Shown here: one piece after another, positions 15,020 to 27,063 of the stretch | Layout: the number at the start of each line of letters is the position of its first letter | Numbering within the stretch: position 1 is the stretch's first letter | Source: Bacteroidia bacterium | GTDB lineage: Bacteria > Bacteroidota > Bacteroidia > CAILMK01 > JBBDIG01 | Reading direction: 5' to 3' | Assembly: GCA_040880525.1 (NCBI GenBank) | Contig: JBBDIG010000018.1 | Coordinates: 1-37,028, forward strand | DNA: 37,028 nt | Made by a program: the position numbers and the translations under genes | The notes under the pieces: model-generated | What the model was told of the DNA's origin: nothing | The model's input: only the letters and a program-made list of their open reading frames with translations | Database searches by the model: none

Positions 15020-15047
15020 TCAATATTGATCATTGCAAAACCAACGT

Positions 15048-16391
15048 ATGAATAACCTAAGAATACCATCACTGCTCATCCTGACCGCCTTTCTCTGCAC
15101 CTGCTCAAGTGATGTGTATTTTAAAGAAGTGCCGAAAAGAAACTATGCGCTTCCTGGGCAAACGGCCCCACCTGACATGGTATTTATTGAAGGAAATGAT
15201 ACCATGCCTTCCTTTTATGTTGGAATTACCGAAGAACCCAATATCAATTATGTAATTTACCTGCAATGGCTTCACACAGTTTATATAGATTATCCACAAG
15301 TATTGGGGGATGCACTCCCGCACATACCCAATGATTCTGATGCATTAGCATTACATGAACCCTTCATCACGGGTTATTTAACCAATCCTGCTTATGCATA
15401 TTATCCTGTAGTAAACCTGACCTGGAAACAGATTCAGCGATACCTGGCATGGAAAACTGACAGGTTGAATGAAGCAATTCTAATTGAATTAGGATTGGCA
15501 CCTTTTTATCCTGTCCAGGTTAATGAAGAAAATTTTAATACAGAAGCATTTGTTTTTGAGCAATATGACATCAGCCGTTACAAGGAGGATAAGAATCACA
15601 AATTTAATCGGAAAAGTTATCAGGGCGCACTGATGAGCAGAAGTTATAATTCGGGAATATTATTTCCCGGATACCGCTTGCCGACAGAAGCGGAATGGGT
15701 GTATATGAATAGCATTTCCACTCAATCTACTAATAGAATTAATAAAAGCAAGCAACTGCCACCACAACTATATGATGAGGATTTTTTCTTGCTACGATGG
15801 GGAAATTACTTCTGGAGTCGGAGTGGCTTTTATGACAGCGATGCAGAGCAAATAACCAGATTCCATGATAAGGATATCAACCTGCTTTATCAGATTTCCT
15901 CTGCTGGTATTCCTCAAACAAATGAAAACGATAGTATCTCTTATCAAATAGTTCGATCTCTTGAGGAGTATTCAAGTAATTATTACGGTTTAATTCAGCA
16001 GGAGTCAGGTGTTGCTGAAATTCTTCTGGATGAATATGATAGTATCATGACTTTAAATTCAAACTGGTTGGAAGTACTGGATTCGGGTGGGTCTAATTTG
16101 ACCAGTCCAGCTTTGAAAGATTCGGAAGGACGGATGATTGAAAAGGATTCTATTGGCCGAATGAGGGACTTTAGAATTCTTGGTTTCTATCCGAATGGTA
16201 ATGCTATCAAGGTTAGCATAGAGACAGATGGTACATTGCGCAAACGGGTTGTCAGAGGTGGAACGTGGAGAAAGCCAGGGAATTACAGGTCATTTATCTG
16301 GGAAGATCAGCACAGTTCCACGGTCGGTTTTAGGTGTGTGCTACCATACACGGGCACTCCGGTTTTAAAAGATTATAAGGTAAAATGGTAA
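15048..16391 (+). CDS. GldJ/GldK-like SUMF1-domain lipoprotein (tandem copy 1)
   Basis: The 447-residue lipoprotein has the signal LLILTAFLCTC and an acylated Cys at about residue 20. The mature part is a formylglycine-generating-enzyme (SUMF1) fold. It contains PPDMVFIEGNDTMPSFYVG (~45-63), EPNINYVIYLQWL in place of the usual EVTN segment, YPVVNLTWKQIQRYLAWKTDRLNE (~125-148), YRLPTEAEWVYM, and near the end KRVVRGGTWRKPG and VGFRCVLPY. The catalytic cysteine pair of true formylglycine enzymes is not evident, as in the gliding and T9SS lipoproteins GldJ and GldK. A structural or accessory role in the outer membrane is likely. It heads a run of three paralogues. Confidence 0.87.
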   Translation: MNNLRIPSLLILTAFLCTCSSDVYFKEVPKRNYALPGQTAPPDMVFIEGNDTMPSFYVGITEEPNINYVIYLQWLHTVYIDYPQVLGDALPHIPNDSDALALHEPFITGYLTNPAYAYYPVVNLTWKQIQRYLAWKTDRLNEAILIELGLAPFYPVQVNEENFNTEAFVFEQYDISRYKEDKNHKFNRKSYQGALMSRSYNSGILFPGYRLPTEAEWVYMNSISTQSTNRINKSKQLPPQLYDEDFFLLRWGNYFWSRSGFYDSDAEQITRFHDKDINLLYQISSAGIPQTNENDSISYQIVRSLEEYSSNYYGLIQQESGVAEILLDEYDSIMTLNSNWLEVLDSGGSNLTSPALKDSEGRMIEKDSIGRMRDFRILGFYPNGNAIKVSIETDGTLRKRVVRGGTWRKPGNYRSFIWEDQHSSTVGFRCVLPYTGTPVLKDYKVKW

Positions 16392-16448
16392 ATATAGCAT
16401 TGTGACCTCAAATATGTCAGCAACTCACAACCCAAGACCCGAAGAACA

Positions 16449-17720
16449 ATGAGATTTCTTATACTTCTGATTTGTGTTGTTTTCTCGGCCTGTTCCTACA
16501 TTGGGCAAAGCGGGAAAACGCCCATCAACAACTATATCATTCCCGGACAAACGGCACCTCCTGATATGGTATTTATCAAAGGGAATGATACTATGCCATC
16601 CTTTTATGTGTCCACTATGCCTGAACCCAACATTAACTACGTAACTTACCTGCGATGGTTATATAAGGTATATAAAAGTTACCCCCAGGTATTTTGCGAA
16701 GCCTTGCCACATGAATTAAATGATACAGGTGGATTAGAAATAAATGAAGCGTATATCAGAAACTTTTTGACTAATCCTAATTACGCTTATTATCCCGTTG
16801 TAAATCTAACATGGCAGCAGATCCAAAAGTATTTAGCATGGAAAACAGATCGCCTAAACGAGTCCATACTTATTGAAACTGGCACCCTTCCATTTGAGCC
16901 ATACCCGATTAATAATGAAAATTTCAATACCGAAGCTTTCATCTATTTTAGTATAGGACACTTTGCCAACACGTTTGAGTCAAGGTTTGCAAATCGTAAT
17001 GCCAGAAGCTTAAATTCTGGGATTTTATTTACAGGATATCGCCTGCCGAGCGAGGCGGAATGGGAATACATTCGTGAGGGCACTAAAACCTTTGTTTTAA
17101 CCTCTTATCCAGATAGGAAGAATGCTCCATACCAAGTCTATAATGAGGGTTACTTTTTACAGCAATGGGGCACAGATTTTTGGGATGATACTACCGGATT
17201 TGTAAGGAAATATAGAAGTCCACCTTCTTTAATATCGCTGGTTGAGCGAGATAGCTTGTACAGAAACTGTCGAGCCATAGCCCAGTCCATTCTTGCATAT
17301 TCACCAAACGACTTAAATTCTGTGAATCAAACGCAATGTGTATTCGAAATACTTCTTGACAAATACGACTCTAGCCCGGAACTAAATTCAAACTGGATAC
17401 AGGTGCTAAAATCAGGAGGCTTTAATTTGACTGATCCTGGAGAATATAACTTTGATGGGACCCCAGTCAGTCCAGATAGTCTCGGCAGAATGAAATTTTT
17501 TCGAATATTAGGATTATACTCAAATGGCTCACCAGTAAAGGTTAGTTTAGAAACTGATGGTACTCATCGTAAACGTGTTGTAAGAGCTGGGGCCTGCGGA
17601 AATACAACAACTGATCGATCCTTCTTGTGGGAAAATGGACATAGTCCAAAAGTGGGTTTCAGATGTGTGCTGCCGTACACCGGTACTCCAGTACTAAAGG
17701 GACATAAAGTAGAATGGTAG
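16449..17720 (+). CDS. GldJ/GldK-like SUMF1-domain lipoprotein (tandem copy 2)
   Basis: This is a 423-residue paralogue of the preceding gene, with signal LLICVVFSAC. The landmarks are the same: PGQTAPPDMVFIKGNDTMPS, EPNINYVTYLRWL, YPVVNLTWQQIQKYLAWKTD, YRLPSEAEWEYI, KRVVRAGACGNTTTDRSFLW and VGFRCVLPYTGTPV. In the otherwise conserved RGGTW motif this copy reads RAGAC, a notable change in the core of the fold. It is the most diverged of the three and lies 57 bases after copy 1. Gene conversion or relaxed selection could explain the pattern of sharp conservation at the N-terminus and the last 40 residues. Confidence 0.86.
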   Translation: MRFLILLICVVFSACSYIGQSGKTPINNYIIPGQTAPPDMVFIKGNDTMPSFYVSTMPEPNINYVTYLRWLYKVYKSYPQVFCEALPHELNDTGGLEINEAYIRNFLTNPNYAYYPVVNLTWQQIQKYLAWKTDRLNESILIETGTLPFEPYPINNENFNTEAFIYFSIGHFANTFESRFANRNARSLNSGILFTGYRLPSEAEWEYIREGTKTFVLTSYPDRKNAPYQVYNEGYFLQQWGTDFWDDTTGFVRKYRSPPSLISLVERDSLYRNCRAIAQSILAYSPNDLNSVNQTQCVFEILLDKYDSSPELNSNWIQVLKSGGFNLTDPGEYNFDGTPVSPDSLGRMKFFRILGLYSNGSPVKVSLETDGTHRKRVVRAGACGNTTTDRSFLWENGHSPKVGFRCVLPYTGTPVLKGHKVEW

Positions 17721-17771
17721 CAGTTTAGCTGGTTTAACAACAATTTATTGCAAGTAACAATTTTATAAACA

Positions 17772-19102
17772 ATGAAGATATCTAAAATTATAATACTCCT
17801 GACCGCTTCCTTATTATTTATCACTTGCTCAAATAATGTTTATTTCAAGAAAGTGCGTAAAATAAATTTTGCTCTTCCGGGACAAACAGCACCTCCCGAT
17901 ATGGTATTGATTGAAGGAAATGATACTATGCCTTCGTTCTATGTTGGTATTATGGAAGAACCTAATATTAATTATGTGATTTACCTGCAATGGCTTCATA
18001 AAGTTTATTTAGATTATCCCTTTGTACTGTTGCAAGCACTACCTCATATCCCTGGTAATTCCAAAGCCTTGGCGTTAAATGAAGCCTACATCAATGGCTA
18101 TCTAACCAATCCCGCCTACGCCTACTATCCGGTTACAAATCTTTCTTGGGAACAAATACAGAATTACCTGACCTGGAAGACCGACCGGTTGAATGAATCT
18201 ATTCTTATAGAATTAGGTTTTGTGAAGTTTCAACCTGACCAGGTAAATGAAGAAAACTTCAATACTGAAACTTTTATCTATAATCAGTATGATCCTACCC
18301 CCACAAAAAAGGTGAAGGATTATTTTTACAGAAAAGAATCTGAGAGTCTTAGTCGGCTTATGGACTTAAATTCAGGAATAATGTCCCCAGGTTATCGCTT
18401 GCCAACCGAAGCAGAATGGGAATATATTATTAAAACTAAACCAAATTCGGTCAACAACCCAAGGCCAAAAAAGAAAGTAGTTCCTTCTCACTTATATGGC
18501 AATGATTATTTTCCTTTACGCTGGAGCAACTTTTATTGGAATAATATAGATGTAAGTAAATGGCTCCAAATATCGCAAGTATCCCCTCAGCAAGATATTA
18601 ATTTGCTTTACCCGACACCCACGGCAGGTATTCCTAAAATGGGTAAAAAAGATAGCACCACCTTATAGTCCGATCAATTCTGGAGTATCCAAGAAATTAC
18701 TACGGTCCCATCCATCAGAACGAAGGTGTTTCTGAAGTGCTTTTGGATGAGTATGACGCTATTCCCAGATTGAACGCAAATTGGCAAGAAGTACTGGCCT
18801 CAGGCGGATTTGCGGTGAACTCACCTCAATTTGATGAAAATGTTTATAATCCAAGGAAAAACCATCTCGGAAGAATGCCTTTCAGAATATTAGGCGTAGA
18901 TTCAAATGGCGCTCCGCTCAAGGTTAGTCGAGACGAAGATGGGGAAATCCGTAAACGTGTGGTTAGAGGCGGAACCTGGCGTAGCACTGGGGATTTTAGG
19001 TCGTACATTTCAGAAGACCAGCATAGTCCCACAGTTGGATTCAGATGCATATTACCTTATACCGGAATACCAGTAGATAGGAAGTATAAGGTGAAATGGT
19101 AG
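17772..19102 (+). pseudogene. GldJ/GldK-like SUMF1-domain lipoprotein (tandem copy 3), frameshifted
   Basis: The first frame (17772-18668) matches copy 1 from the lipobox (LLFITC) to KKDSTTL, then stops. The second frame resumes a few bases later with VRSILEYPRNYYG and runs to 19102 with KRVVRGGTWRSTG and VGFRCILPYTG. Compared with copy 1, about four bases are lost around 18660-18665, which shifts the frame. Everything else is intact and close to copy 1, so the lesion looks recent. As written, the product lacks the C-terminal third of the fold. It could be a sequencing error or a phase-variable state, but there is no long homopolymer at the site. Confidence 0.88.
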
Positions 19103-20060: not shown

Positions 20061-20678
20061 CTATTCCAGCAACCCTTCAAACAACGCATCCAACTCCACC
20101 TCAACTTCCGGGAATTGCTGCGGGGAAATGTTTTCTCCTGCTGCCTTTGGGGGCCAAGAATAGTATTTTCCACTGTCATTCAGATAATTGACGCTGACCC
20201 ATTTCTCCATCGGATTTACTATCCAATATTCCTTTACACCATACTTTTGGTATTCTTCAAATTTTAGTGTCATATCCTTTTTTTGAGTACTTGGCGAAAG
20301 AATTTCGATGACGAAATCAGGCGCCCCTACAATTCCGAATTTCCTGATTTTTGAGAAAGCACAGACGATGCACAGGTCTGGCTGGAAGACGTTTTTAGCC
20401 TTGCGATAATCGTTCTGAGGTGCATCAAGATAAACGTCTACCGGGCTTAGCACCACCCGGCAGGGATTGCCCTTCAGGGAATTACCGAATATCAGGTGCA
20501 GGCGACCCACCAAATCCTGATGGTTAAATCCCGGTCCCGTCATCCTGAAAATTTTTCCGCGAACAAGCTCCACCATCTCCTCGAATTTCCAGGTAATGTA
20601 ATCGCCTGCGGTGTACGTTCCGGAAAGGTCAGGCTCGTTAACCTTAATCAGTTTATCATTCTCAACCGTGTATCCCAT
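20061..20678 (-). CDS. Uma2-family (DUF820) endonuclease-like protein
   Basis: The 205-residue protein has the restriction-endonuclease-like Uma2 fold: an N-terminal helical segment YITWKFEEMVELVRGKIFRM, the central QPDLCIVC strand (~115-122), PDFVIEILSPST (~137-148) with the conserved Asp and Glu, then KFEEYQKYGVKEYWIVNP. The family is very common in cyanobacteria and some Bacteroidota and is assumed to contain nucleases, but no reaction is firmly established. It has a normal length and an intact core. A broken sister copy lies directly upstream. Confidence 0.9.
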   Translation of the reverse strand: MGYTVENDKLIKVNEPDLSGTYTAGDYITWKFEEMVELVRGKIFRMTGPGFNHQDLVGRLHLIFGNSLKGNPCRVVLSPVDVYLDAPQNDYRKAKNVFQPDLCIVCAFSKIRKFGIVGAPDFVIEILSPSTQKKDMTLKFEEYQKYGVKEYWIVNPMEKWVSVNYLNDSGKYYSWPPKAAGENISPQQFPEVEVELDALFEGLLE

Positions 20679-20708
20679 TTTAAAAATCTTTAAAAACTAA
20701 ACGCCAAA

Positions 20709-21109
20709 TTACTCCAGCAACCCTTCAAACAACGCATCCAACTCCACTTTAACTTTCGGGAATTGCTGCGGTGAGAGACTGCCTTGCACCCTCGGTTTCA
20801 AAGTGCGGTATTTCCCATCTTCCAGAAGGTTGATGATCACCATTTTCTCTGCCGGGCTAATCATCCAGTATTCCTTAACGCCATACTTTTCATAAACTTC
20901 CAGCTTGTCTGATGCGGATCCACCATGTTTAATACTCGCTTCAGCACTAATTGATGGTTGGTGACAGGTGCATTCATCCTGAATATCTTGCCATGCACCA
21001 GCTCCACAAGTTGCTCAAACTTCCAGTTGACGTAATCTGCCGCAGTATAGGTGCCGGAGAAATCAGGCTCTTGTACTTCGGGGGATTTGCTTTCGCTTTT
21101 GTAGGTCAT
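20709..21109 (-). pseudogene. Uma2-family gene with an internal deletion
   Basis: The minus strand begins with an intact Uma2 N-terminus (DYVNWKFEQLVELVHGKIFRM) to about 20925. It then jumps, with a change of frame, to the C-terminal part (EVYEKYGVKEYWMISPAEKM) and ends in the same ELDALFEGLLE as the intact neighbour. About 65 residues that would carry the catalytic PDF-IE segment are missing. The shared ends show that this and the 20061-20678 gene arose by tandem duplication. Confidence 0.9.
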
Positions 21110-21535
21110 ACTTCAAAATTAATGAATCCAAATAATTTTGAGGTCAGGATTCTACCACAAAATGCCGTGCATAAAATTCTCCCAATCTCATTAACTTTCC
21201 GCTTCAATTCAACCAATTAACAAAATGAATACCTCTAATTAACAATTATGCTCATTCCCAAATATTAATACACGGACTGAAACCCCGGAGCAAAATAACA
21301 CGCCAAGCACTGAATTTTATTTAAAAAAGAAAATCTAAATTTAACTTAGAAAAAGGCAATACAGTTCGATACGTTCTTCACATGGCCCGAAACTGAAGGA
21401 AATATTGGTTGATTAATTAAAACAATAGCTAAATAAATACTCTTTAATTTTAAAGCTGATCCATCTTATCTCATGAACAACTCTCTCTTTGTTGTTGTCT
21501 GATAGAAAAGCATCACAAAAGTGGGGAAAGTAAAA
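21110..21535. other. AT-rich intergenic stretch, nothing recognised
   Basis: This lies between the broken Uma2 gene and the kinase-fold gene on the opposite strand. No gene, strong hairpin or repeat is visible. It must hold the promoters of the two divergent units, but no clear TAnnTTTG box was found. Confidence 0.4.
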
Positions 21536-22723
21536 ATGGATATATTGTACTGGGTTGCAGGCTTTTTAGTATTGACAGTAGTGATTCCTAACACCACCAA
21601 TTTTAAAGAACGCAAAGCATTTTCAGATAAGCACAGGCTTGAAGAGGCCCGCCTGCATTATCATGCAGACTCCCTGGGAGATTCCATTACTATAATTCCC
21701 GGTAAATTTTACGATCGCGGGTTTTTATTCAAATTTTTCTTTGGAGAAAAATACCGGGAAATCTGGAATACGCCTGTCACTGTGGCGGTATTCGACTATG
21801 AGGAAAATCTGGGTCAACTGAAACCGGTAGATGGAGGAGGTGGGGAACAGACAATTTCTATTGATCTGGAAGATCAGCAGGAACGGGAGTGGTCTCTGCG
21901 CTCTGTGAATAAAGACCAGATTGGCAGCGTACCCAAAATCCTCCGGCCTACGATCGTAAGGGTAATGTTCAGGGATCAGGTTTCGGGGATGAATCCCTAT
22001 GGCGCATTGATCACAAGGAAATTGTCCGACTCACTGGGCATCAAGTCGCTTTCTCCGCGCATGACGTTTGTGCCGTACGATGAAAGGCTTGGTGACTACA
22101 ATGACCGGATGGCGGGAAGGCTGGCGTTTTATGAGGAGAATCTTAATTCATCATGGAAGAATAGCGAGCGCTGGAATAATGCTGACGACATTGTGAATAC
22201 GGAGGATATGTTTGAGATCATGGGAAATACCGTGGTGCAATTCGATACAATGCGCTACCTTAAAAACCGGCTCTTCGATATGCTGATAAACGACTGGGAC
22301 CGGCATAGCGGACAGTGGGAATGGGAAGTGCATGAGGGGGAGGATACAACGCTGCTGGTGCCGATACCCAAAGACCGTGATGTGGCCTTTTTCGTCTTTA
22401 ATGAAGGCTTCATGAATAAACTTGCACTTCTCTTTACCAATCGCCTTCCATCCTTCAGGCCACAATACGGAAATCTGAAGGCCAGGATCAATAGGGAATT
22501 AGATCCGATGATCCTGAAAAAAGTCCCGGTTTCGAAGTTTATACAAACGGCCAAAGAATTACAGGCGGCTATGACGGACGAGATCATCCACGAGGCCTTT
22601 CTTGAATATCCTGATGCTGTGTACGAAATGTTCGGAGAGCAGCACCAGGCCGTGTTAAAAGCGCGCCTGGAAAAACTGACCAGGGAAGCCGAAATATTTC
22701 ACGGAAGGCTGCAGAAAATGTAG
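21536..22723 (+). CDS. membrane-anchored protein kinase-fold-like domain protein (stand-alone)
   Basis: This product of about 395 residues has an N-terminal membrane segment (ILYWVAGFLVLTVVIP) and then a domain I recognise from much larger Bacteroidota proteins, where it sits between a metallophosphoesterase and a surface-antigen barrel. Numbered from an in-frame GTG five codons upstream, landmarks are GGGGEQTISIDL (105-116), RSVNKD (127-132), DQVSGMNPYGAL (152-163), RLFDMLINDWDRHSGQWEWE (250-269) and VPIPKDRDVAFF (280-291). The D-W-D-R-H and P-K-D-R-D clusters look like catalytic and metal loops of the FAM20/HipA-like kinase fold. Activity is not established. The ATG at 21536 is preferred over the GTG. 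Confidence 0.72.
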   Translation: MDILYWVAGFLVLTVVIPNTTNFKERKAFSDKHRLEEARLHYHADSLGDSITIIPGKFYDRGFLFKFFFGEKYREIWNTPVTVAVFDYEENLGQLKPVDGGGGEQTISIDLEDQQEREWSLRSVNKDQIGSVPKILRPTIVRVMFRDQVSGMNPYGALITRKLSDSLGIKSLSPRMTFVPYDERLGDYNDRMAGRLAFYEENLNSSWKNSERWNNADDIVNTEDMFEIMGNTVVQFDTMRYLKNRLFDMLINDWDRHSGQWEWEVHEGEDTTLLVPIPKDRDVAFFVFNEGFMNKLALLFTNRLPSFRPQYGNLKARINRELDPMILKKVPVSKFIQTAKELQAAMTDEIIHEAFLEYPDAVYEMFGEQHQAVLKARLEKLTREAEIFHGRLQKM

Positions 22724-22908: not shown

Positions 22909-23277
22909 CTAAATCACATTCATCAGCCGTGCATTCCAGTACCAATCCATGGTGCTGGCGATATTCAGCTTCTGAATAATATTTCTTCGATGGGTATCAA
23001 CCGTATGTTTTGAAAGACTTATTTCTTCTGAAATTTTTTGACTGGTCTTGCCTTTAGCCACTAATCTCAGTATCTCCAGTTCACGGGGTGTGAGATTTTC
23101 ATCTCTCGGTTCCTGTGCTTTAATACTATCGTCATACTCCTGAAAAGATTTCATGGCATTCTTAGAAATTGAATCCATAACATTCTCTGATTCAAGGGAT
23201 GACATGTGAACCAGTTGCAGTTTACTGAAAACGTGGTCTGGGTCAAGAGGGGCGTAGTTGGTAGTACTCTTTTTCAT
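22909..23277 (-). CDS. small LuxR-type helix-turn-helix regulator
   Basis: The 122-residue protein has a C-terminal LuxR/FixJ DNA-binding domain (~63-118): LTPRELEILRLVAKGKTSQKI, then EEISLSKHTVDTHRRNIIQKL. The first 60 residues are not a receiver domain and resemble nothing known to me, so any input signal is unclear. The motif SxHTVDTHRRNI is complete, and DNA binding is expected. No kinase is adjacent; the converging kinase-fold protein gene may be coincidence. Confidence 0.88.
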   Translation of the reverse strand: MKKSTTNYAPLDPDHVFSKLQLVHMSSLESENVMDSISKNAMKSFQEYDDSIKAQEPRDENLTPRELEILRLVAKGKTSQKISEEISLSKHTVDTHRRNIIQKLNIASTMDWYWNARLMNVI

Positions 23278-24097: not shown

Positions 24098-24832
24098 TTA
24101 ACGGGGTTCCAGCAACTGAATGGCCTTTTTGCTCTCTCCACGGCTGGAATTCCGGAATTCATAGTAATGGCTGATTTTATCGCCCTCTGTCACAAAGGCT
24201 TCAACGGGCAGACCATCTCTCCCGTATTTTATCGTTACGTGCCTGCCATTCCGGTGTTCATGGCGCAACTCTTCTCTCATGCGGTTTCCATCATATTTAA
24301 AAAAGGCGGAAGAAAGTGTATCCGCACCTGCAATAAATACCACCCGCTCCAGCAGGCCCGGTTGTTTGTACTGATATATTCTGGTTGCCAATTCATTACC
24401 ATCCGTATCACGATACACCTGCCGCGATAAAAGGCCGTTGTAGCTCAACACATTTTCCAGCAGTATATTTTGCACACAGCCTTTTACCGTAAGTACCACC
24501 TTCCTGTAATCCGGGGAGCCATCATATTTATAGGTTATCACCTCTCGGTTACCAGCCGTTTCTGCTGTATCACAATTTTCTTCAAACAGCATCCAGGTCT
24601 CATCAAAGGGTGATGAAAAGGAAGCGGGAGCGAATTCCTCCTGCACCAGGTGCCCCTCGTCATCGAACCATCGCTGATATATCTCGCGGTTATTTTCGAT
24701 CACAGTCTGCGATGCTACGTTCTGCGCTACAATGCGCTCCTGCTCCGTCATCTGTACACCATTTTTATCTTCATTTCTGCATCCGGCCATCACCACTAGA
24801 AGCAAGAGCAAATATTTACTGTAATTCATCAT
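24098..24832 (-). CDS. hypothetical lipoprotein, coupled to the PLD-like gene
   Basis: The 244-residue product has a lipoprotein signal (KYLLLLLVVMAGC) and then a soluble, beta-rich domain with repeated short strands that end in Tyr-rich turns, such as VLSYNGLLSRQVYRDTDGNELATRI. This pattern resembles the toxin_15/RHS-like or MORN-like antitoxin repeats of Bacteroidota, but I do not recognise a family. Its ATG overlaps the stop codon of the upstream PLD-like gene (ATGA), so the two are translated together and probably act together at the envelope. A second ATG follows directly. Confidence 0.8.
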   Translation of the reverse strand: MMNYSKYLLLLLVVMAGCRNEDKNGVQMTEQERIVAQNVASQTVIENNREIYQRWFDDEGHLVQEEFAPASFSSPFDETWMLFEENCDTAETAGNREVITYKYDGSPDYRKVVLTVKGCVQNILLENVLSYNGLLSRQVYRDTDGNELATRIYQYKQPGLLERVVFIAGADTLSSAFFKYDGNRMREELRHEHRNGRHVTIKYGRDGLPVEAFVTEGDKISHYYEFRNSSRGESKKAIQLLEPR

Positions 24833-27063
24833 TTAATTAAGATTTTCCGGGTAAATGTACTTTTGCCATTGTTGAAATGAAGCAGATAAAAACCGCTGCT
24901 TATTTCCGGCATCGGTAGCTCAAATTTATTGGCGCCTGCCTGCACTTCAAATTGCCGGTGCATCAACTGCTGCCCCTGCAGATTAACGAGCAAAATCTGC
25001 CAAACGCCTGCTTCCGTTACCACCATGCTAACTGGAATATTCTCACCCCGGCTTGTCAGGGTGGGCATCCATGCCATCACCCGGTCTGTCATTTTCTGCT
25101 CTATACCGGTTCCGGGCGAATAGGTGTAGGTTCCGCCATTTTCCCTGAATCGCTGCACCCACTCCTGGAAGTAGATATTCGCAAGGGTATCATCATGGAT
25201 AATAAGCGTGTTTTCATCATTTCGCGTTTCAGCGGCAGTGCTCCAGTTATGGCTACCTGTGATGAGCAATGGATCTGTCTGAACGTGGTATTGATCCACG
25301 ATGGCGTATTTATGATGCAACTGATCGGTGGTTTGCTCATGGCGCAGGCGCTGGCCCAGCGATGATTTTATCAAATTAAAATCGCTTCCGCTGCCGGCAC
25401 TGTCTTCCATCAGGCCAGCCACATAAACCCCGGCATCGTGCCGGTTGATGAGCGAATCTGCCAACTCATTCCGGGTAATCAACAGCGTGGCAAAATAAAG
25501 TTCCTCATCTGCGCTCAGCAGGGCATTTTCAATATGGGCAGTAGTTTGGTCCGTTGGACTGAAATAGAGTTCAACCTCATTGCCGCCAATCTTAAAAAGT
25601 TGCGGAGTATTATTGGTTTTGTCAGGGCCGAATTTCGCATTTCCCGGCACAGGCAATGCTCCGGCTGAACCGTACATTTCCTCGAATTCGAGGACAAAAG
25701 CCCGGGCCAGCGCCTGGTCCTGGATGATGATCACATTATTCGCATCGAAGTCAATCTGGTCGCGCGTAAGGTTTGTGCTGCCGGTCCACACCAGCGGATC
25801 ATCAGGGTTGGAAGATTTACCATCAATTATTACGAACTTATTGTGCATGATCCCATAATCCATTCCTGTCGGGCTTTTGATCACACCAATCCCCGGCCTC
25901 AGCCCATTTAGTCCCAGCATAGCCGTAGAACCGTCCGCAACTATCCTTACGGCCAACCCCCGGTCATAAGCCGAATTGACTGCATCAGTAATATGGGCGG
26001 TGAGGCTGTTATTATTTAAATTGTACAACGCAAGGTCAATACTCTGTTTCGCCCGTCTCAGGTATGCCACCAGCGTATCGTCTATTCCTTTTCCGACAGA
26101 AACCGCAGGCCTTCCGGTATTATAAGAAGTATCCACCGGCAGGTTAAAATATATCTTGACATCTCCGCTTGATAAGGACGCGGTTGACATCATTTGAATG
26201 CTGCTGCGGGAGGTATCGCCATTTGCATCAACGGATAGTCCCTGGACGTTATAAAACGTTGCGGGCGAAAGTCCGGTAAGCATTATCTCATGTTCGGTAA
26301 CCAGGCTGGCATCCGTTTCCTCCCCCATTTCGAGGGCTGCGGAAATTCCATATCGCAAAATTGTATTTCCTTCTTCCTCTGTTTCAAAATATATCTTAAT
26401 GGTAGAAGTCGTCAATTCATGCTGCATCAAAGGAGTTGTGATGACAGGTCCCGCCCCTTGCGCAATATCCATCTTGCTTCGCAGCAACAATTGATAGCTG
26501 CTCTGGTACTGGCTCATAATTCCGGTCAGGGTGACACTATCGCCCGGTATGGGTTCTCCTGCCAGGTCTACATCCTGACCGATACGGATTTGCTTGGTCA
26601 CTCCGCCCCTGGAGATGTCGTAATTGGTATTGCCCGAAAAGAATCCGGTCGCATCTATGCCCACTTTTTCGAAAGTAACAAGCTGCCCTTCATACTGCTC
26701 TGCAAATCCCTGCTGAAGTGACAGAACCTTTGGCGCAGGTAGCAGATTGCCGCTATTTATGACATTCACGTTGGTTACCGGATCCAATTCCAAAAGATTA
26801 TTGAAATCCTTGAGCGTACCGGAAATTACTATGCTATCACCCGTTTGTAATGAAGAGACGGCAGTGCCATAAGCCGCCAGCCCTCCGGTACTATCCTGGA
26901 AGTAGCGTATGATGCCAAACTCACTGCCGTTGGTTACAATCCCCGATACAGTTACGGTACTCCCCGGAGTTTTACCTCTTGCCGAAGCAATGGTTTCCTG
27001 TGCAAATACATTGGATTGTATTAAGATAAAAAAGGCAAGGACCGTATTCAATATTCTGTACAT
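24829..27063 (-). CDS. secreted phospholipase D-like protein with OB-like, FN3-like and T9SS sorting domains
   Basis: The 744-residue protein starts with a cleavable signal peptide (to ~AQ22). Then come two OB-like beta regions (~25-200), a fibronectin-III-like segment (~205-295) and a PLD superfamily catalytic module. Both HKD motifs are complete: H407-x-K409-x4-D414 with a downstream GSTN, and H583-x-K585-x4-D590 with GSHN. They form one active site for phosphodiester cleavage of lipid or nucleic acid. The last ~80 residues form a T9SS type A sorting domain ending in FTRKILIK, so the enzyme is exported across the outer membrane. Extracellular nuclease or lipase activity is inferred; the OB-like regions favour nucleic acid. 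Confidence 0.9.
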   Translation of the reverse strand: MYRILNTVLAFFILIQSNVFAQETIASARGKTPGSTVTVSGIVTNGSEFGIIRYFQDSTGGLAAYGTAVSSLQTGDSIVISGTLKDFNNLLELDPVTNVNVINSGNLLPAPKVLSLQQGFAEQYEGQLVTFEKVGIDATGFFSGNTNYDISRGGVTKQIRIGQDVDLAGEPIPGDSVTLTGIMSQYQSSYQLLLRSKMDIAQGAGPVITTPLMQHELTTSTIKIYFETEEEGNTILRYGISAALEMGEETDASLVTEHEIMLTGLSPATFYNVQGLSVDANGDTSRSSIQMMSTASLSSGDVKIYFNLPVDTSYNTGRPAVSVGKGIDDTLVAYLRRAKQSIDLALYNLNNNSLTAHITDAVNSAYDRGLAVRIVADGSTAMLGLNGLRPGIGVIKSPTGMDYGIMHNKFVIIDGKSSNPDDPLVWTGSTNLTRDQIDFDANNVIIIQDQALARAFVLEFEEMYGSAGALPVPGNAKFGPDKTNNTPQLFKIGGNEVELYFSPTDQTTAHIENALLSADEELYFATLLITRNELADSLINRHDAGVYVAGLMEDSAGSGSDFNLIKSSLGQRLRHEQTTDQLHHKYAIVDQYHVQTDPLLITGSHNWSTAAETRNDENTLIIHDDTLANIYFQEWVQRFRENGGTYTYSPGTGIEQKMTDRVMAWMPTLTSRGENIPVSMVVTEAGVWQILLVNLQGQQLMHRQFEVQAGANKFELPMPEISSGFYLLHFNNGKSTFTRKILIK

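Follow-up and report, generated by a model that had tools for sequence, protein, structure and literature searches.

Can a kinase fold work outside the cytoplasm of a Bacteroidia bacterium? The question is raised by a gene in the window, the whole stretch of 37,028 nucleotides analysed here, whose product is made up of a hydrophobic helix at the N-terminus and a single domain. The space outside the cytoplasm is poor in ATP, and kinases are therefore not expected there. The open reading frame originally predicted at 21536-22723 was present on the + strand and ends at the stop 22723, with two alternative starts in the ORF listing, GTG at 21521 and ATG at 21536. The nearest homologue, a 404 aa protein of Fulvivirga sediminis (L022), is 41% identical to the window protein, and the two align colinearly and without gaps beginning at the GTG residue, which favours the GTG start. 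The predicted ligand residues K131, D260 and D285 are present and their numbering fits this start (they are 126, 255 and 280 from the ATG), whereas the start coordinate given with them was that of the ATG. GTG numbering is used below unless stated otherwise. The gene comprises the following features.

21521..22723, + strand: stand-alone kinase-fold gene, 400 aa from the GTG or 395 aa from the ATG at 21536 (ORF, colinearity of the GTG start with L022, AF2 model)
21530..21586, + strand: N-terminal membrane helix or signal anchor, residues 4-22 (Kyte-Doolittle hydropathy, N-flank charge, model helix)
21680..22717, + strand: predicted kinase-fold domain with no Pfam/NCBIfam entry (family profile match over 3-352 of 352; top Foldseek matches all kinases)
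21899..21913, + strand: R-S-V-N-K, candidate donor-phosphate contacts (conservation of R127 and K131; on or just after the strand 118-123, ATG numbering)
22292..22318, + strand: DWDRHSGQW, candidate catalytic loop (conservation; DRH in register with CtkA in the HMM alignment)
22361..22381, + strand: PIPKDRD, candidate metal-binding, DFG-equivalent segment (conservation; position after the model strand pair 261-267/271-278)

The gene looks monocistronic, since about 300 bp upstream of it contain no listed same-strand ORF and a LuxR-type gene follows it in convergent orientation. This small LuxR-type (GerE) regulator, which had been pointed out as a neighbour, is real and located at 22909-23277, but it lies on the opposite strand and is absent beside the L022 homologue. 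A LuxR-kinase operon is ruled out by the convergent strands and this lack of conservation, and the neighbour has no functional weight. No substrate or partner gene of the window protein was evident, and no conserved neighbour was found in the clade of two members formed by the window protein and L022.

The window also harbours three tandem genes for GldJ/GldK-like lipoproteins of the FGE-sulfatase fold (15033-19102). None of the three reaches the curated cut-offs, and the third is interrupted, with its C-terminal part resuming in another frame from about 18737. A Uma2-family putative endonuclease is encoded at 20061-21109, and the adjoining 82-aa ORF, which has a similar N-terminus, is probably a partial second copy. 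The 744-aa secreted protein encoded at 24829-27063 carries DUF5689 and two PLD-like stretches, ends in a T9SS sorting tail, and is a candidate exported nuclease or phospholipase.

Profile search of the window protein matched none of the Pfam or NCBIfam families, and the PADLOC profile PDC-M03A matched it weakly (E 0.041). Its membership in a family is far above chance, because a paralogue in its own genome aligns with it at a pairwise E of 2e-48. Pairwise E-values against other genomes reach 5.9e-64. The profile of an alignment of 64 homologues (A2), the window protein itself being among the 64 rows, matches it at E 9.9e-117. The residues invariant in A2, namely G75, R79, D152, P159, R250, D253, D258, W266, W268, D285 and G296, are all present in the window protein. 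Named genomes gave no matches with the single protein as query, and the alignment query retrieved 80 loci among the matches listed, mostly from Bacteroidota and some from Chlorobi, Balneola and Rhodothermales. In species-representative genomes, an alignment-based scan confirmed at least 589 related stretches out of at least 594 candidates, and 53 of 395 genomes of the same class possess the domain.

Domain partners were surveyed for 143 distinct domains in the fetched loci; these loci are a best-match selection, the counts are not population frequencies, and the classes were set by ORF length, which misfiles a few contig-cut ORFs (e.g. L113). Sixty-seven domains belong to the phosphoesterase-domain-barrel type, 64 to stand-alone proteins with an extra ~130 aa (chiefly lipoproteins of Pontibacter and Hymenobacter), eight to a domain-barrel type and four to a minimal type, of which the window copy is a fifth form. 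The domain had been described as usually accompanied by a metallophosphoesterase and a barrel. This is supported by the 67 domains and by a further copy encoded in the same genome, which lies within a 1238-aa metallophosphoesterase-domain-Omp85 protein (calcineurin-like phosphoesterase and Omp85 barrel), but not by the 64 stand-alone domains. Similar proteins of other Bacteroidota carry the same domain, about 30-36% identical to that of the window protein, fused between the phosphoesterase and the outer-membrane barrel, whereas the window copy has neither partner. The stand-alone form is nevertheless not unusual, contrary to the original prediction: lipoproteins of ~530 aa are abundant in Hymenobacteraceae and other membrane-anchored forms of ~400 aa were found, and the window gene is thus not the only one of its kind. 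It is among the simplest forms of the domain family. One domain-barrel homologue (G083, L015:5558-8131) has lost both the DRH (DWNETTENW) and K131, and its product is probably a dead form fused to the barrel.

L022 and the window protein make up a clade of their own (bootstrap/SH-aLRT 100/98), which lies within a larger, mostly stand-alone group (96/85). Another minimal lineage (G355, G374 and G316) branches elsewhere and ends in CFxC; its members, encoded at L131:5882-7153, L132:5439-6710 and L133:6339-7610, are membrane-anchored proteins of 423 aa each with a conserved terminal C-F-[DE]-C. The minimal ~400-aa forms are probably two lineages. A single origin of all of them looks unlikely, as the bootstrap trees require two changes, one origin was recovered in 0% of 200 trees, and the AU test with the minimal forms forced into one clade gave p 0.06.

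AlphaFold (AF2) produced models with pLDDT 85.3 and pTM 0.84 from 12 aligned sequences, and with pLDDT 91.0 and pTM 0.90 from 64. The order of the model elements is that of a kinase, with a mostly beta N-lobe containing a helix at 140-151, a long helix at 238-250 and the DRH loop, followed by the strand pair 261-267/271-278, the DRD segment and a helical C-lobe (ATG numbering). Foldseek searches of the PDB with both models found CtkA first, then PI4KII and CotH, all top matches being kinases, and HipA, RIO (RIO2), ADCK3 and Fam20C at lower ranks. The best PDB entries give modest TM-scores of about 0.37 (query) and 0.49 (target), none being above 0.49. The predicted fold is thus kinase-like and not an unrelated one. 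Comparison with FAM20C, HipA and CotH had been suggested; the nearest folds are those of CtkA/HipA-like kinases and PI4KII, CotH comes next, and FAM20C is weaker.

Sequence comparison points weakly in the same direction. Searching PDB sequences with the profile retrieved CtkA at E 0.12-0.13 with the DRH loop in register, and the HipA-related PDC-M03A profiles of PADLOC match 44 of the 64 homologues weakly at E <= 0.1 (best E 2.8e-7). PDC-M03A and HipA_C match the same genes, for example G040:C47, G039:C7, G047:C87 and G000:C40. Direct profile-profile links to HipA and CotH, judged by hhalign beside 12 control families, were insignificant: the Bacteroidota HipA alignment gave a probability of 0.7%, similar to the unrelated controls, and the CotH alignment 0.2%, not above them. 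Structure prediction, with its modest TM-scores, and the weak sequence links suggest that the domain is a kinase fold; it could not be assigned to HipA, CotH, FAM20 or PI4K.

The best Foldseek match, the HipA-like Ser/Thr kinase CtkA of Helicobacter pylori (PDB 3akj/3akk; E 1.7e-6 and 2.7e-5), shares with the window family a DRH loop that is in register in the HMM comparison. Nonetheless, CtkA and the window protein are about 13% identical, the catalytic-loop Asn of CtkA is Gln in the window protein, and the DFG-equivalent segment differs from PIPKDRD. Unlike CtkA, the window family is membrane-anchored, lipoprotein or barrel-fused. A DRH-type loop is likewise found in HipA (PF07804) and PDC-M03A, although Pfam HipA_C matched neither the window protein nor any A2 member. 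HipA is cytoplasmic and has an antitoxin partner, whereas no HipB-type antitoxin gene was seen among the adjacent same-strand ORFs of the window gene, which stands alone. The second-best fold group, the type II phosphatidylinositol 4-kinases (PI4KII), matched at E 2.6e-5 and 1.4e-4; the PI3_PI4_kinase family (PF00454) matched neither the window protein nor A2 members, and PF00454 or PI4K-type kinases were absent from 99 class genomes. CotH (PF08757), a spore-coat and secreted kinase family, provides a precedent for a kinase fold outside the bacterial cytoplasm. Its structures 5jd9/5jda matched at E 2e-4 to 5e-4 and its D-x-D type metal segment is similar to the PxxDRD of the window family, while Pfam CotH matched neither the window protein nor A2 members and was not found in the window's genome. 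The secretory-pathway kinase FAM20C also combines an extracytoplasmic kinase fold with a DRH motif. It is eukaryotic and a weaker fold match (E 5e-3 to 4e-2), and its ranks of 18 and 26 with the two models show that it is not the closest fold of the window protein.

The DWDRHSGQW and PIPKDRD clusters were found as predicted, and their Asp residues are conserved among the 64 homologues (D258 and D285 in all, D287 in 63, D260 in 58). R261 is kept in 62 members, H262 in 60, Q265 in 62 (N in two) and W266 in 64; the usual catalytic-loop Asn is Gln in 62 of the 64. In the N-terminal part of the domain, R127 is kept in 63 members (K in the other), K131 in 63, D152 in 64 and E205 in 63. D260, D285/D287 and R127/K131 are present in the window protein, and their candidate roles were assigned by motif register. 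The three ligand residues proposed originally are therefore conserved (63, 58 and 64 of 64 for K131, D260 and D285), but the identity of K131 as the kinase lysine is uncertain. In the AF2 model R127 falls on a predicted beta strand, with K131 right behind the strand, and R127 may therefore be the residue that truly corresponds to that lysine.

The predicted membrane helix was confirmed by hydropathy (19-residue Kyte-Doolittle maximum with mean 1.96, N-flank net +2) and by the model, which has a helix at residues 3-21 (ATG numbering). Both flanks of the anchor are net +2, leaving the charge-based orientation ambiguous. Among homologue ORFs, 121 of 142 possess a lipobox or a hydrophobic N-terminus, as judged by crude rules with automatic start choice. 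In each of the five minimal forms a positive N-terminus precedes a hydrophobic stretch, without a lipobox, and the fused homologues end in the Omp85 barrel. The family probably works outside the cytoplasm, and the simplest reading of the window protein's sequence would be a signal anchor that is not cleaved and a domain located in the periplasm.

Stand-alone copies also occur in pairs. In 24 of them SRR or SRH replaces DRH; these form one clade (SH-aLRT 96), and every one of them shares its locus with a DRH-bearing copy (directly in 23 loci; L009 and L013 cover one and the same region). Such lipoprotein pairs were found in Pontibacter and Hymenobacter (L025, L029, L037, L050, L066, L013 and others), and suggest kinase-pseudokinase pairs. 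In eukaryotes, FAM20C pairs with the pseudokinase FAM20A, which may be a parallel to the stand-alone DRH/SRR genes.

The fused giant proteins have recurrent neighbours; the counts come from related loci without a background frequency, and show conserved order, not independent events. A gene for HD-PycTM, which is Pycsar effector-like, lies at most three ORFs from the phosphoesterase-kinase-Omp85 gene in 41 of 49 cases (for example L021:4661-5992, + strand). An SdiA-regulated-like gene is present within three ORFs in 16 of 49 cases, PPK1 in 12 and a nucleotide cyclase (PycC profile match) in 12, and a histidine phosphatase is also found in these flanks. The neighbourhoods thus display a nucleotide/polyphosphate theme.

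On balance, we consider it reasonably probable that the window protein is an inner-membrane-anchored periplasmic kinase-like phosphotransferase, whose kinase fold is atypical and has its relatives in the group of HipA/CtkA, PI4KII and CotH. The protein would span the inner membrane once, with the N-terminus inside and the catalytic domain in the periplasm, and would transfer phosphate onto an envelope target, be it a protein, a lipid or a glycan. The catalytic base would be D260 in the DRH loop, the metal would be bound by D285/D287, and the donor phosphates by R127/K131 and D152. Computation shows the homology, the predicted fold, the kept motif residues and the hydrophobic anchor, from which the residue roles, the periplasmic side and the activity are inferred. 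The phosphate donor is a problem for this reading, because the periplasm is poor in ATP. Against it also speak the modest TM-scores, the hhalign results for HipA and CotH, the Gln in the catalytic loop, the ambiguous flank charges and the lack of an evident substrate or partner gene.

The same scarcity of ATP would suit a catalytically dead pseudokinase, one that binds a nucleotide, phosphate or polyphosphate and regulates its partners as a scaffold or sensor. The Gln in place of the metal-binding Asn and the ready loss of the catalytic Asp in the family (the 24 SRR/SRH copies and a few barrel-fused ones) are consistent with such a role, but DRH, D285 and D287 are all kept in the window copy. 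Moreover, the Asp-less stand-alone copies are a clade of their own near Asp-bearing copies, which suggests that the Asp matters in the other copies, and we regard a dead window protein as unlikely. An active enzyme might instead transfer another group, such as AMP, which is the group transferred by SelO, or use a donor other than ATP, for example polyphosphate. PPK1 is encoded near the 1238-aa giant of the window's genome as well as near the 12 of 49 giants, and the ATP-poor compartment also fits; PPK1 is, however, not near the window gene, and gene proximity alone is uninformative on the donor, so that this possibility appears quite doubtful. Finally, the helix could have its N-terminus outside, leaving a HipA/CtkA-like kinase tethered to the inner membrane and facing the cytoplasm. 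The positive KERK after the helix and, from the ATG start, the absence of a positive residue before it would fit. Nevertheless, the GTG start is backed by the colinear alignment with L022, in which the N-flank is clearly positive, and export signals or outer-membrane barrels are present in most relatives, which makes a cytoplasmic domain very improbable.

The kinase fold itself is already known; new is a branch of it located in exported proteins, which has no Pfam or NCBIfam name despite the at least 589 related stretches. The literature on the phosphoesterase-Omp85 architecture, in a search with most subscription journals outside its scope, yielded no description of the domain, and the main text of an Omp85 survey (PMC4104836) mentions neither phosphatase, phosphoesterase nor kinase. 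With 400 aa, one domain and one anchor, the minimal window form is a convenient construct for an activity test. We tentatively propose that Bacteroidota may possess an extracytoplasmic kinase family comprising fused phosphatase-kinase-barrel proteins, lipoprotein kinase/pseudokinase pairs and anchored single-domain enzymes, with envelope targets and possibly a non-ATP donor, polyphosphate being a candidate. If the family is active, phosphorylation outside the cytoplasm would be common in a major bacterial phylum, and the source of phosphate outside the cytoplasm would become a sharp question.
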